From: Polychytrium aggregatum
Lineage: Eukaryota; Chytridiomycota; Chytridiomycetes; Polychytriales
Reading direction: 5' to 3'
Assembly: GCF_025602895.1 (NCBI RefSeq)
Contig: NW_026516252.1
Location: forward strand, 124,001 to 188,000
DNA length: 64,000 nucleotides
Shown here: piece after piece, positions 12,644 through 17,116 of the stretch
Position numbering within the stretch: the first letter of the stretch is position 1
Layout of the letters: the number at the start of each line of letters is the position of its first letter
The notes under the pieces: model-generated
The model's input: the letters and a program-made list of their open reading frames with translations, nothing else
Told to the model about the DNA's origin: nothing
Database searches by the model: none
Program-made: the position numbers and the translations under genes

Positions 12644-13389
12644 CCGCGGAATCCGATTTCGCCCGGGCGTCGACTCCCCATCCCACCCCCTTAATCAACT
12701 AATTTGACGGCAAGGACCTCGGCTCCGGCCTTGCTTCTATGAGCAGCGCACCGCCTATCGCACGGCCGTGAGTCCTGGGGTCAGTTATCGGCTTGAATCA
12801 CCCGCTCAATTCCCAGACTCGGCGGCCAGCATGCTCATCGGTACCGGCTAACGGAGGCCCGCAGCACTCTGGTCGCCATCATGGCTCCTCATAGCAGGAG
12901 CGACGCTTCACAAAACCCTGGCGAATCGACTGCCAATGTCGCTTTGGCCTTTGTTGTCATTTCTTTCATTGGATCTTCGCATACCAGATCGGGTGTTTTT
13001 CATGACACCATGTATGTTATCATGTCATCGAGGCACCATTGGTGTCCATACCCCAGCTTTGCTCCAGTCTTTGTCGACACCATCACTTTGTTTCCTCACT
13101 TCTGATACCTTCCACAAGCACACATCTTGCAAGATCGCACCCTCCCTTTCATCCGCACAGACTCTGGTCTCTGTTGTGCCCATAGAGCTGGATGTGGATC
13201 CACAGGCAATACAGCTTCTTCAGAGCGAAACGGGGCAGTGTGTTCCTGAGCGTTCGTCGCAGTGATCTGTAGGCCCCGGTGGGCAGACCATGAGATTGCG
13301 CTCCTGTCTTTGGACAGCGCTGTGGAGAAAGCAAATGTCATATACCCTGGGTCTTTGTTCCCAAAAACCGCATTTACAGGCAATCCAAT
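12644..13389. other. Spacer left of the Fanzor transposon
   Basis: No conserved ORF. This is flanking host DNA up to the left inverted repeat at 13390. Confidence 0.5.
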
Positions 13390-13402
13390 AAAAAACGGGA
13401 CA
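13390..13402 (+). repeat. Left terminal inverted repeat
   Basis: AAAAAACGGGACA, the exact inverse of 17060-17072. It is directly followed by the palindrome CCCGGG. Confidence 0.8.
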
Positions 13403-13460
13403 CCCGGGTTTTTGACCATTCATCGAATATTTTGTTACCCAATGTTATCGCGCGCTGGCC

Positions 13461-14364
13461 ATGACCATTCGCCACACATCCGACTTTCGCACCGCCGCAT
13501 TGCGATGCTACGCCCTCATCCATAGCCTGCGTAAGGTCGCCTCCATCTTCAGTGTGTCCAAGAGCACCATCCATCGATGGCACCGAGGATGCAAGCTGGA
13601 TGACCCATCCCGGGTCCCAGCTCGCAGATCCACTTTCTTCGAGCAGGCATGTCCAGTCATTCGCACCCTGATTGAACAGGACCCGTTCCAGACTGGTCCT
13701 GTGTTGCGATGCAAGCTCGAGTCCATCCTCCAGAGGAAAGTATCACTCTCACTCTGCCACACTGCCCTACAGCGAGCAGGTCTCTCTCACAAGAGGGCAA
13801 CACACCTCAACAAGTCCAAGCGACTGGATGAGCGAGTGGCACAGTTCAGGGACCAGGTCCGCTCCATCGACCCACGGCGGCTCGTTTTTGTCGACGAGAC
13901 AGGGATCAGGAAATCCATTTTCCCTCTCTACGGATACTCACCGAAGGGTGCTCCGCTTCGCCAGCGCAATCACATGAAACACAAGTCCGTCTCGGCTGCA
14001 TCGCACGTACATCCCCACATCATTCAAGACACACTCGATGGTCGAGTTCTTTGAGCGAGCGAGCTTCCCAGACGACTCTGTGATTGTGATGGACAATATC
14101 AGCATGCACAAAACGAGGACTGTCCTGGACTGCATCGAGCGCCGAGGATGGTCAGTGATCTTCACCCCACCTGCCTCACTCGACTTCAATCCCATCGAGA
14201 ACTTCTTTGGGATTGTGAAGCATCAGTACAGGAAGGCAGCAGCGCTGAATGCATCCGAGGGGTTCAGGGTCGGGATGGTGACCCTGTTCGAGTCTGCCGT
14301 TCGGAGGGTGCTTCCAGATGTCTTCCCACGGCTGATTGAGCGAGCGATGCGCTTCTGGGGTTGA
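13461..14364 (+). pseudogene. IS630/Tc1-type DD34E transposase, frameshifted
   Basis: The first segment (13461-14054, 197 aa) starts MTIRHTSDFRTAALRCYALI and contains a helix-turn-helix (VASIFSVSKSTIHRWHRG), a second DNA-binding part and the first catalytic aspartate in RLVFVDETGI. It runs into a TGA at 14052. The second segment, in the +1 frame, ends at 14364 and carries VIVMDNISMHKT (second Asp) and FTPPASLDFNPIENFF (Glu). The spacing between the second Asp and the Glu is 34 residues, a DD34E signature. The two parts meet at about 14036-14040. Residues between TLDG and VEFFER seem fewer than normal, so a short deletion rather than a single lost base is likely (inference). Probably inactive as it stands. 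Confidence 0.85.
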
Positions 14365-14480
14365 GTTCCCTCCAATCAAGCCGCCATTTTCACGCCCAAA
14401 TCCCTGGCTTGAACCTCTCGGCGATTTTGAACAGGGTCGCTTCCCCAACCAGCCCGCGCAGACGGGTTCCTGCTCTCGGG

Positions 14481-14487
14481 TATAAAT
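14481..14487 (+). promoter_or_regulatory. TATA box of the Fanzor gene
   Basis: TATAAAT about 128 nt upstream of the chosen ATG at 14615. It overlaps the earlier in-frame ATG at 14486, which therefore cannot be the translation start of a transcript made from this promoter. Confidence 0.65.
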
Positions 14488-14614
14488 GCCACACCTTCGT
14501 CCTGCTGCTTTCTTCCATCATCTCGCCTTGATCGGATCATCGCGCTATTGTACGATAAAGAAAGTCTCTGTTCTGACCAGTACCACTGGCAGGCATTCAC
14601 CATCCTCTGCCCCC

Positions 14615-16987
14615 ATGCCTCCGAAGCGCAAGGGTACCGGTGATGGCCAGCCTCGGCCACCCAGGCCCAAGAAAGCCAAGTCACAGTCGGAGCCGGTCTC
14701 TGGTTCGTATTCTGACCCCACGCATGCTTGGTCGTCTGTTGCTCCGTCGCTCACCACCACTGCTTCTGCAGATCCAATGGATGTCGATCCCACCGAGCCT
14801 GGTCCATCTACTTCCTCGAGTACCGGCAAGCGATGTCGCCAGTGCGATGGCACCGATCACGAACGTTGCAACACCAGCAAATGTCCAAAATACCGGCCTC
14901 TCAAGAGTTCTGTCGTCCCACTCGTGGATGGAAGGTCATCCGCCCCTCAGTTCAGCTGCTTCAAGCAGACGATGGATGGCTGTTGTCTCAATCCCGCTCT
15001 CCGCGACAAGATCCAGGCCACCGTCGAGGCCATGACACAGATCCAGTTCGAGGCATCCAGGCTGCTCAACCTGCACATCCTCCGGTGCATCGAGCAGGAT
15101 CTTCCCGTCCCCGTCATCTCCAAGTCCACCCCTGCTTTCATCCGCCAATGCTTCACGATCGTCCAGGCTGGTGCCCTCTCCCCGACCGGGGACAATGAGA
15201 AATACAACGAGCATCTGGTCGCTTCCTTTCGCGACTACCAGTCCACTCGGCACGCAGACCTGCCTCCGGCCCCTCGTCTGCCTGATGGTGCTCACAGTCA
15301 GCTTCTCACCCTGGCTGTCAATGCCTATGCCACCAACTGCACGACACACCTCAATCTGGCCTACTGGCGACTCCTTCGCCGCTTCTGTGCTGCCGTCTTC
15401 CCAGCCAACAAGCATAAGCACGAAGCCATCGAGGCCTGTCTCGAGCTCTTCGAGAAACCAGGGCAGACACCACCCAAGGCCGATCTCGAGTTCCTCTATC
15501 CCGAGTTTGGCCATATCCTGGACGAGTTTCGGTACAGCAACGACCAGGACCGCTTCCGGGCTCTCCATCGCCTCTCACACCATGTGAGAATCCTCGCCCG
15601 AGACAAGATGGTCGACAATGTCCACAAGTGGATCGACTGTGACATGTCCGCCCTCCGAGTCACCGAGCTGCAGCGCCAGGCCAAGCTGGACAAGCTCACT
15701 GCCCGAGGCATTCCCTCCGACGACAAGAGGTTCACCACGGCCAAGTCTGAACTCGGCACCACCAAGTCCAAGATCAACAAGCTGGCCGCCAGGATCAACT
15801 GGGCACTCAAGCAGCTCGCTCTCGACACTCCTCCGGCCGTGTGCACGATAGTTCCTCTATGCACTGCCACGGCCAAGTATGTCAAGATTGACACCGTCAC
15901 TCTCTGGCAACTCCTTGACACCGAACATCGTCTTGGATTCACACGGGACAAGCTCAAGGAAGAAGGTGATGACGGTGTCAACAACCAGGATCGTCTCTGG
16001 CGCAGTTGCTTCAAGCTGCGTAGTTCCCTCTTCCAAGAGCGGGACGTGAACAAGAAGCTGTTCAACTACGAGATCAGCACCGATGGCATTGGATGCACCA
16101 TCGGTCTCGTCAAGTTTGTGCGTCGAACCGATCACACCGAGACCATCGAGCCTCCTCCGACTGCCGAGCAGCGTACCCAGACCCACATCGGCGACCCAGA
16201 CCCCGATCGCACCACTTGGATTGGCATCGATCCTGGAGTCGGCTCCATCTTCACGGCGGTCATCCAAGCACCGGGCCACCAAGACGAGGTGGTCTCATTC
16301 TCCAATGGCCACTACCAGCACATGTGTGGCCACAGGTCCAACACCGACTGGCACAATATCATGAAGTATCGACTCAGCATCGAGACCTGGATGTCGACCA
16401 CCCCCTCGCCCAAGGTGTCGTCCTCGGAAGCCTTCAAGGTCCATCTCACCCATGTCCTGCGACCGGAGCTGCGAGTGCAGCTCGACTTCCACCTTGGCAA
16501 GAAGGCCCGTCACCATCGCTTCACGGGCCACAGGAGACGCCAAGTGGCCGTCGACAGGATGTGCAAGGCCGTCCTGAAGCACGCCCCGATACGGACCGAT
16601 GTGGTGATCGCCTTTGGCAATGCGTCATGGCGGCAGGGCAAGGGCTATGCATCCAGCCCTCGGAGGCAGCGGTTTGCTCGGTACTTTGAGCAATTCGAGC
16701 ACCACCGACGCCGTCCCAATCACCATCATGGAAGCGTCAAGGTAGTCTCGACGAACGAGTTCAACACCTCGCAAGTGTGCTCCAAGTGCCTGGAGCCAGT
16801 TCGGTTGGAAGGACTCGATGCGCCCAGCGTTGCGAATTCCCACTTTGTCAGGAGCTGCAAGAATCCCAGCTGCCGGACAGTGTGGAATCGCGACGTCAAT
16901 GCGGCGCGCAACATGATCACAGTGTGCAGGTCGATTGTGGAGACCGGAGAGCGACCGGCGGTCTTCACTCGGAGGCTGCCAAAGTGA
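14615..16987 (+). CDS. Fanzor: eukaryotic TnpB-like RNA-guided nuclease family protein
   Basis: A single intronless ORF of 790 aa from ATG 14615. The N-terminus is basic (MPPKRK, PRPKKAK), consistent with a nuclear localisation signal. C74, C77, H82, C85 and C90 form a small possible zinc knuckle. A long alpha-helical middle is followed by a TnpB-like core: NYEISTDGIGCTIGLVKFV, RuvC-I WIGIDPGVGSIFTAV (D539), an AFGNASWRQGKG segment, STNEFNTSQVCSKC (E715, then C722/C725), CKNPSC (C748/C753) and NRDVNAARNM (D760). The D-E-D triad plus a four-cysteine zinc ribbon between the last two catalytic residues is the TnpB/Cas12 RuvC layout. The glutamate lies just before the zinc ribbon, as reported for Fanzor. 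By family knowledge it would cut DNA using a guide RNA made from the element's 3' end. All catalytic residues are present. Confidence 0.92.
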   Translation: MPPKRKGTGDGQPRPPRPKKAKSQSEPVSGSYSDPTHAWSSVAPSLTTTASADPMDVDPTEPGPSTSSSTGKRCRQCDGTDHERCNTSKCPKYRPLKSSVVPLVDGRSSAPQFSCFKQTMDGCCLNPALRDKIQATVEAMTQIQFEASRLLNLHILRCIEQDLPVPVISKSTPAFIRQCFTIVQAGALSPTGDNEKYNEHLVASFRDYQSTRHADLPPAPRLPDGAHSQLLTLAVNAYATNCTTHLNLAYWRLLRRFCAAVFPANKHKHEAIEACLELFEKPGQTPPKADLEFLYPEFGHILDEFRYSNDQDRFRALHRLSHHVRILARDKMVDNVHKWIDCDMSALRVTELQRQAKLDKLTARGIPSDDKRFTTAKSELGTTKSKINKLAARINWALKQLALDTPPAVCTIVPLCTATAKYVKIDTVTLWQLLDTEHRLGFTRDKLKEEGDDGVNNQDRLWRSCFKLRSSLFQERDVNKKLFNYEISTDGIGCTIGLVKFVRRTDHTETIEPPPTAEQRTQTHIGDPDPDRTTWIGIDPGVGSIFTAVIQAPGHQDEVVSFSNGHYQHMCGHRSNTDWHNIMKYRLSIETWMSTTPSPKVSSSEAFKVHLTHVLRPELRVQLDFHLGKKARHHRFTGHRRRQVAVDRMCKAVLKHAPIRTDVVIAFGNASWRQGKGYASSPRRQRFARYFEQFEHHRRRPNHHHGSVKVVSTNEFNTSQVCSKCLEPVRLEGLDAPSVANSHFVRSCKNPSCRTVWNRDVNAARNMITVCRSIVETGERPAVFTRRLPK

Positions 16988-17075
16988 TCTGTTTTATTTC
17001 TTATGGCTTTGCTTGACGCAAGCACAGCACATACTACATGTTCATGGAAACGGCTATATTGTCCCGTTTTTTTTC
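16988..17075 (+). ncRNA. Candidate Fanzor guide-RNA (omega/fRNA) 3' region
   Basis: The stretch from the Fanzor stop to the right transposon end is where the guide scaffold of TnpB/Fanzor elements usually lies. It contains a perfect 6-bp hairpin (TGCTTG-ACG-CAAGCA, 17010-17024) and a weaker one (CATG-TT-CATG, 17037-17046), then the inverted repeat. The guide would begin in flanking DNA after about 17075. Position and function are inference; no expression is shown. Confidence 0.35.
17060..17072 (-). repeat. Right terminal inverted repeat
   Basis: TGTCCCGTTTTTT, the exact inverse of 13390-13402, followed by two further T residues and CTGAATA. Confidence 0.8.
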
Positions 17076-17116
17076 TGAATAAAGTGTAGCTGCCACCTGC
17101 CCGCCCAGTTCAACTC

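Follow-up and report, generated by a model that had tools for sequence, protein, structure and literature searches.

Within a 64,000-nt stretch of the genome of the chytrid Polychytrium aggregatum (contig NW_026516252.1, positions 124,001 to 188,000 of the forward strand; hereafter the window, to which all coordinates refer) we find a multicopy transposon of the IS630/Tc1 type; in many of its copies the frames for both a DD34E transposase and a Fanzor1-type nuclease are open. Its copies follow a one-sided insertion-site rule, a T before the duplicated TA at the left end, and some of them bear short scars at that end. We consider it fairly probable that the Fanzor, with TTA as its target-adjacent motif (TAM), recuts empty sites so that the element is restored, that copies lacking the T are lost, and that the left-end scars remain as a trace of this process.

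The proposed cycle would run as follows. The transposase would cut and paste the element at TA, and an RNA from the right end would include, as its guide, ~15 nt from the start of the right flank. The Fanzor would require TTA, made up of the nucleotide on the left side of the insertion and the TA that is duplicated, which would make the filled site uncuttable. The empty site would be cut after excision or on an element-free homologue, and repair from the element-bearing copy would restore the element. Copies at sites without T before TA would get no such rescue and would be lost. Where a partly trimmed left arm joined the template at a microhomology, a few nucleotides of right flank would come to replace the outer left end.

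The limits of the element were fixed by comparison of 30 fetched copies. Its terminal sequences are CAGGCAATCCAATAAAAAACGGGACA, directly after the left TA, and TGTCCCGTTTTTTnnCTGAATAAAGTG, directly before the right TA. A sequence-only reading of the window had placed the element at 13390..17072 with exact 13-bp inverted ends. The inverted arms at 13390-13402 and 17060-17072 do match exactly, but they are not the termini, and at each end the earlier boundaries fell short by 13-14 nt. The inner 13 nt are identical between the two ends and the outer ~11 nt differ.

13374, forward strand: T preceding the left TA; would be the first base of the predicted TTA TAM
13375-13376, no strand: left TA, target-site duplication (TSD), from the alignment of 30 copies
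13377-17086, forward strand: whole IS630/Tc1-type transposon, ends by comparison of copies
13377-13402, forward strand: left terminal inverted repeat (TIR), matching the right end exactly over its inner 13 nt but not over its outer half
17060-17086, forward strand: right TIR
17087-17088, no strand: right TA, TSD, from the alignment of 30 copies

In the assembly as counted (64.68 Mb, 418 contigs, from which contig labels such as C9 and C63 below are taken) the left-end 16-mer occurs 363 times and the right-end 17-mer 318 times, with 0 for each reversed control; the left 16-mer also occurs in at least one sister family, and the counts include segmental duplicates, so the 363 are not all one family. 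The caveat that no other copy might share these ends therefore fails decisively. For the flanks we used 73 sites, namely 75 distinct tabulated sites without L111, a tandem, and L174, which has no right flank. Read by eye, TA directly precedes the left end in 71 of the 73 (exceptions L118 and L163) and the right flank opens with TA in 70 (exceptions L009, L030 and L140). The DD34E triad, the TA duplication and the terminal inverted repeats give good support for membership of the IS630/Tc1 group.

Two arrangements of copies were observed beside these. At L111 (C13:461800-461960) a left end comes immediately after a right end in head-to-tail order, separated from it by a single TA. L020 and L065 have an identical right flank and different left flanks, while L143 has the left flank of L020 and L174 that of L065; this mixture suggests recombination between copies or assembly joins, and contigs C52 and C81 terminate at elements of this set.

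Canonical left ends are present at 59 of the 73 sites. A T precedes the TA in 57 of these 59 distinct canonical sites, whereas the mirror base, an A after the right TA, is found in 11/59 (p = 1.6e-19). Genome-wide, with duplicates included, T stands before TA at 206/216 canonical left ends (10 without), and A beyond the right end is far rarer, 41/213 (172 without). As background, T precedes 12.8% of TA in the window and A follows 12.5%, so the right-side A is slightly above background and nowhere near the left-side T. The T is unlikely to be part of the element rather than of its target: the scarred copies L011, L014, L019, L022, L121 and L123 keep it though the sequence after their TA equals the right flank (L086 is ambiguous).

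Does this rule belong to the transposase or to the Fanzor? A transposase that itself preferred TTA in one orientation, owing to the different outer halves of the ends and with the Fanzor as an inert or unrelated passenger, would produce the same asymmetry. The outer ~11 nt do indeed differ, and T-TA is kept in 7/7 canonical sites of those short and mid-length forms that have no complete Fanzor. The sister family, which we call D (the family of the window element being E), points the other way. A D element on C63, with the left end TACAGCC, has a Fanzor 40% identical to that of the window and a different right end, while the 5′ part of its transposase matches that of the E copy L002 at 300/301 nt and 98/98 residues (one copy, 301 nt). 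Nevertheless, T precedes TA in only 7/13 D-type left ends, compared with 206/216 canonical ones (p = 5.6e-5). Since D keeps a near-identical transposase 5′ part with another Fanzor and right end and lacks the T preference, the rule appears, on the simplest reading, to follow the Fanzor and right end, not the transposase. The purifying selection on the Fanzor frames, described below, is also at odds with a passenger, and we regard transposase preference as distinctly unlikely.

A left module spreading between families was considered as well and is a weak candidate: blocks at 13437-13856 show a divergence of 0.7-2.8% among E copies, but several blocks further to the right are equally low, with 0.5% at 14637 and 0.4% at 16857 as examples.

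An analogous case has been described in Spizellomyces punctatus, where Spu-1 has a conserved CA upstream of its 5′ inverted repeat and the measured TAM of SpuFz1 is CATA (PMC10432273). By the same logic TTA is the likely TAM of the window Fanzor, a prediction for which the comparison with D is the strongest leg.

The scars give a second line of evidence. In seven copies the opening bases of the copy's own right flank stand in place of the outer left end: L011 (8 nt), L014 (5), L019 (12), L022 (7), L086 (10), L121 (11) and L123 (9). At least 7 nt are shared with the own right flank at 6/73 sites, compared with a mean of 0.79 and a maximum of 3 in 2,000 permutations. The seven make up half of the 14 non-canonical left ends (match of at least 5 nt), and in 7/7 the element resumes at a microhomology of 2-6 nt. 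L023 shares 6 nt and was not counted, its left end being a common subfamily form. The reverse case, a right end replaced by left flank, was not seen by eye in the site table (7/73 against 0/73, p = 0.013; by the stricter count 6 against 0, p = 0.028).

This one-sidedness is what the recutting model predicts, since the Fanzor would cut in the right-flank part of the empty site and trimming of the left arm would be incomplete. In SpuFz1 the cuts fall after target bases 16-17 and 20-21, and all scar tracts are too short to reach these positions. Failed repair of a recut empty site is thus a plausible origin. One-ended transposition could leave scars with no Fanzor involved: the right end would join at TA and a damaged left end would be attached at a microhomology some nucleotides beyond, which would lengthen the target duplication. 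It predicts the identical structure, with an exact right end, a duplicated tract starting from TA and a microhomology of 2-6 nt. Random failure of either end should, however, give both polarities, and the site table shows one. We judge this origin of the scars somewhat unlikely.

Some right flanks resemble an element end. A script flagged 8/73 (0.73 expected per end type, two types compared): L075, L091, L121, L141, L147, L023 and L170 resemble the left end, and L120 resembles the right end in backward reading. Two of these, L075 and L091, reach the cut-off for the right end as well, and six of the eight (not L023 and L170) are convincing by eye. With the same cut-off only L081 passes among 38 left flanks. 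Since T-TA precedes old left ends, the same site rule could favour insertion beside relatives.

The intact 790-aa Fanzor open reading frame of the sequence-only reading was confirmed, starting from MPPKRK.

14478-14487, forward strand: TATA-like motif GGGTATAAAT, lying 137 nt ahead of the Fanzor start and at equal distance in 28/30 copies
14615-16987 (with stop), forward strand: Fanzor1-type gene, 790 aa, with DPG, alternative Glu, TDG, C4 zinc finger and RD

The first ATG, at 14486, would give 833 aa; we prefer 14615 because the frame in 21/30 fetched copies opens just 26 codons before MPPK. According to PMC10711439, Fanzor1 proteins are marked by a DPG motif and by an alternative Glu about six residues before the zinc finger, without the canonical Glu, and Fanzors have a TDG motif in the WED domain. 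The window protein has the RuvC-I motif GIDPG (D539), the alternative RuvC-II residue E715 six residues ahead of C722, and VVIAFGN in the canonical region; E715 aligns with the D-E-Y and P-E-H sites of SpuFz1 and GtFz1. The TDG motif lies at 489-491 within ISTDGIG (487-493) and is invariant in 14 sequences. The Fanzor pattern D-X(125-275)-[TS][TS]-X-X-C4-X(5-50)-RD (PMC3627910) is matched by D539, T718-S719, C722/C725/C748/C753 and R759-D760. The RuvC residues D539, E715 and D760 are all in place and invariant in 14 aligned proteins, and the Pfam Cas12f1-like TNB domain PF07282 is detected at 1.8e-9. A profile of 14 proteins from the genome, compared with 177,635 PDB sequences, gave SpuFz1 (E 0.0044, confined to a region near the C terminus) and GtFz1 (0.14) as its best two matches, both weak. 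Protein searches gave no outside relative above threshold, and a viral scan gave 41 pattern-matching stretches with no relative among them. Family placement rests on these fingerprints together with the weak profile and fold matches, and by the features tested Fanzor1 membership is well supported, so that the earlier view of a Fanzor gene inside an IS630/Tc1-type (DD34E, TA) element is borne out.

Two further features lie near the N terminus. The basic segment at 14615-14680 could serve as a nuclear signal, and a zinc-knuckle-like CxxC...H...C is present at 14828-14899 (residues 72-95), with similar stretches in the D Fanzor.

The intact RuvC triad bears on another possibility, that the Fanzor chiefly binds and acts as a regulator of the transposon, for instance silencing its expression through guide matches, with the T rule reflecting binding. 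TAM-dependent binding would, by inference, leave an equal asymmetry. All three catalytic residues are nonetheless retained and the scars look like break repair, which makes this account very unlikely.

The genome search scored 54 near-full Fanzor copies at many places (from 1,475 first-look candidates), and all 30 fetched copies sit between the same kind of transposon ends at many places. This also answers the suggestion that the host has kept the gene, which is unlikely. The window copy, with its intact Fanzor and broken transposase, does look like a candidate for takeover, but against so many copies in the same setting we give takeover at this locus almost no probability, and we reject domestication for a gene that is multicopy inside transposon ends.

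A Fanzor frame of 788-790 aa from MPPK is kept in 26/30 fetched copies, or 22/25 without the likely duplicates L003, L017, L025, L027 and L028. Mean pairwise dN/dS (nonsynonymous to synonymous divergence) of the Fanzor is 0.297 (26 copies, likely duplicates included). Split by kind of change, private changes give 0.49 and shared ones 0.26 (p = 0.0014; 22 copies, duplicates removed). The stronger purifying selection on shared changes fits the expectation from selection during transposition, which recombination among copies may blur. The one-sided TTA rule, the scars and a dN/dS of ~0.30 thus lend support to the earlier idea that the nuclease helps the element persist.

13461-14054, forward strand: transposase 5′ piece, 197-aa frame with a helix-turn-helix-like part and the first catalytic D; weak Pfam matches (DDE_3 E 0.0045, below the Pfam cut-off); 310-aa frame in other copies
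13994-13995, forward strand: junction of the frame-breaking 29-bp deletion, from alignment
14038-14364, forward strand: transposase 3′ piece with the second D and the E of DD34E (Pfam DDE_3 E 1.2e-12; spacing from copy L002)

In the window the two transposase pieces are out of frame because 29 bp are deleted; the missing bases adjoin a GCTGCAT repeat and are present in 11/14 aligned sequences. Copy L002 shows the catalytic residues D145-D221-E256, that is, DD34E. An uninterrupted 310-aa frame is found in 13/30 fetched copies (9/25 after removal of likely duplicates). Mean pairwise dN/dS is 0.350 (26 copies, likely duplicates included), with 0.36 for private and 0.20 for shared changes (p = 0.21; 16 copies, duplicates removed), and the transposase, too, is under purifying selection. 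The statement that the transposase decayed while the Fanzor stayed intact consequently stands for the window copy with its deletion and falls for the family, where decay is ruled out by the full frames in 13/30 copies and a dN/dS of ~0.35. In the sample the Fanzor outlasts the transposase (22/25 against 9/25 intact), an excess that sampling favours because copies were chosen by Fanzor score.

The right end was examined as the possible source of the guide.

16988-17088, forward strand: predicted guide-RNA (omega RNA) scaffold, including the right TIR and TSD
17089-17105, forward strand: right flank, predicted guide of the window copy, inferred from published Fanzor guide RNAs running ~15 nt past the element
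17078-17083, forward strand: AATAAA inside the right end, possible poly(A) signal

Copies diverge on average by 1.7% over 16988-17034 and by 2.3% over 17035-17086, compared with 4.6% in the stretch between the genes; the figure is likewise low (2.0%) over the last 70 Fanzor codons, and Fanzor synonymous divergence is 0.093. The fold of 16988-17088 has z -2.33 and places the TSD in a stem. The right end, 167-217 nt, is kept in all 6 ghost copies examined. Fanzor guide RNAs reach ~15 nt past the duplication (PMC10711439), and the conserved right end fits a predicted guide RNA. The AATAAA stands 3 nt in from the right terminus, is present in 74/80 right ends read (duplicates included) and is missing from the one D right end seen; only as an idea, it could end the message in the flank and so set the guide.

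Shortened forms of the element are frequent. Among 80 typed TNB matches (profile range 17-60, from 150 of 663 candidates scored, a few E copies of range 16-60 being left out), 42 lie in frames of at least 750 aa and 13 in frames of 135-136 aa, the shortened form. The ghost copies L081, L090, L120, L133, L140 and L163 are a few hundred bp long, keep both ends and share deletion points at 16872 or 16920. In L099, L103, L145 and L151 (C9, C13, C57) a repeated form has its ends ~1.07 kb apart and a TNB match in a 136-aa frame. Further TNB matches (C124:405504, C379:92828, C279:35225 and others) lie in frames of ~477 and 447 aa with Pfam scores better than that of the window Fanzor; those on C124 and C379 form inverted pairs ~5 kb apart. 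Elsewhere in the window, 2 of 10 other long frames had a Pfam match, and Rfam (gathering threshold) and tRNA scans of the 64 kb were empty.

Several observations weigh against recutting by the Fanzor as the explanation. The comparison with D is small: its 13 left ends were found by pattern, at least one pair among them (C30 and C79) looks duplicated, 4/13 have a D-type TNB match at the expected distance (by eye; preceding bases A, G, T, T), and the transposase identity comes from 301 nt of one copy. Of 85 candidates for an empty allele of 20 joined sites, 40 were scored and none proved to be one; the target duplication is accordingly read from the flanks, and the pre-insertion site was not seen. 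Half of the non-canonical left ends (L030, L088, L099, L118, L138, L140 and L163; 7/14) have no clear match to the right flank; L099 shares 4 nt with it, and L140 is unclear since its TA reads CA. The scars could also stem from one-ended transposition. The fold of the right end is not robust, with z of -0.30, -2.33, -0.81 and -2.86 according to the end points chosen. Finally, the AlphaFold model of the Fanzor is poor (mean pLDDT 48); compared with 350,542 PDB chains it ranked the Parasitella Fanzor as its top two matches (E 2.0e-4 and 3.6e-4, TM ~0.2), which, given a model of such low confidence, is only a hint.

A wider proposal we put forward tentatively, leaning slightly to doubt. One transposase of this genome may mobilise elements with two very different cassettes of Fanzor and right end, each imposing its own site rule. 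Recutting of empty sites by the Fanzor, not transposase choice, would then be the main filter on persisting insertions in a eukaryote, and failed repairs would appear as microhomology scars at the left end only; the process may have driven left-end conversion across families.

To our knowledge, most of what is held about the role of Fanzors for their transposons in a native eukaryote is extrapolated from TnpB. The present genome provides an apparent natural experiment: near-identical transposase 5′ sequence goes with two different nucleases, insertion sites number in the hundreds, and the site rule varies with the nuclease, which suggests that the Fanzor helps decide which copies survive. The result is a testable TAM prediction (TTA) and a class of footprint to seek in any Fanzor-bearing genome. 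In the open-licence literature searched we found no report of Fanzor families that share a transposase and differ in site rule, nor of left-end scars of the right-flank type.

TnpB of IS200/IS605 is comparable as an RNA-guided nuclease that keeps its element at its site, and it has been reported as a gene drive on plasmids (PMC11870625). It differs in its transposase (TnpA), in its bacterial host and in typically having D-hydrophobic-G and the canonical Glu (PMC10711439). Closer is Spu-1/SpuFz1 of Spizellomyces punctatus (Saito 2023, PMC10432273), likewise a multicopy Fanzor1 between inverted repeats, whose conserved bases upstream of the left repeat fit the TAM and whose ghost copies retain the right-end region. 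However, its described locus is a 2.1-kb element with a single open reading frame, its TAM is CATA against the predicted TTA, and SpuFz1 resembles the window Fanzor in sequence near the C terminus only. GtFz1 of Guillardia theta is a Fanzor1 with the TAM TTAAN, close to the predicted TTA, but its sequence match is weak. In PGv-1, PUl-1 and PUl-4 (Bao and Jurka 2013, PMC3627910) inverted repeats with TA duplications enclose a mariner-like transposase, a Fanzor1 or both, and the window element, too, combines a Fanzor1 and a Tc/mariner-like transposase with such repeats and duplications. PGv-1 is described there as single-copy, whereas the window family has hundreds of end copies and both intact and shortened forms. 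Compared with the Tc/mariner Fanzor1 elements of that description, the elements of P. aggregatum present two Fanzors with a shared transposase type, together with an insertion-site signature.

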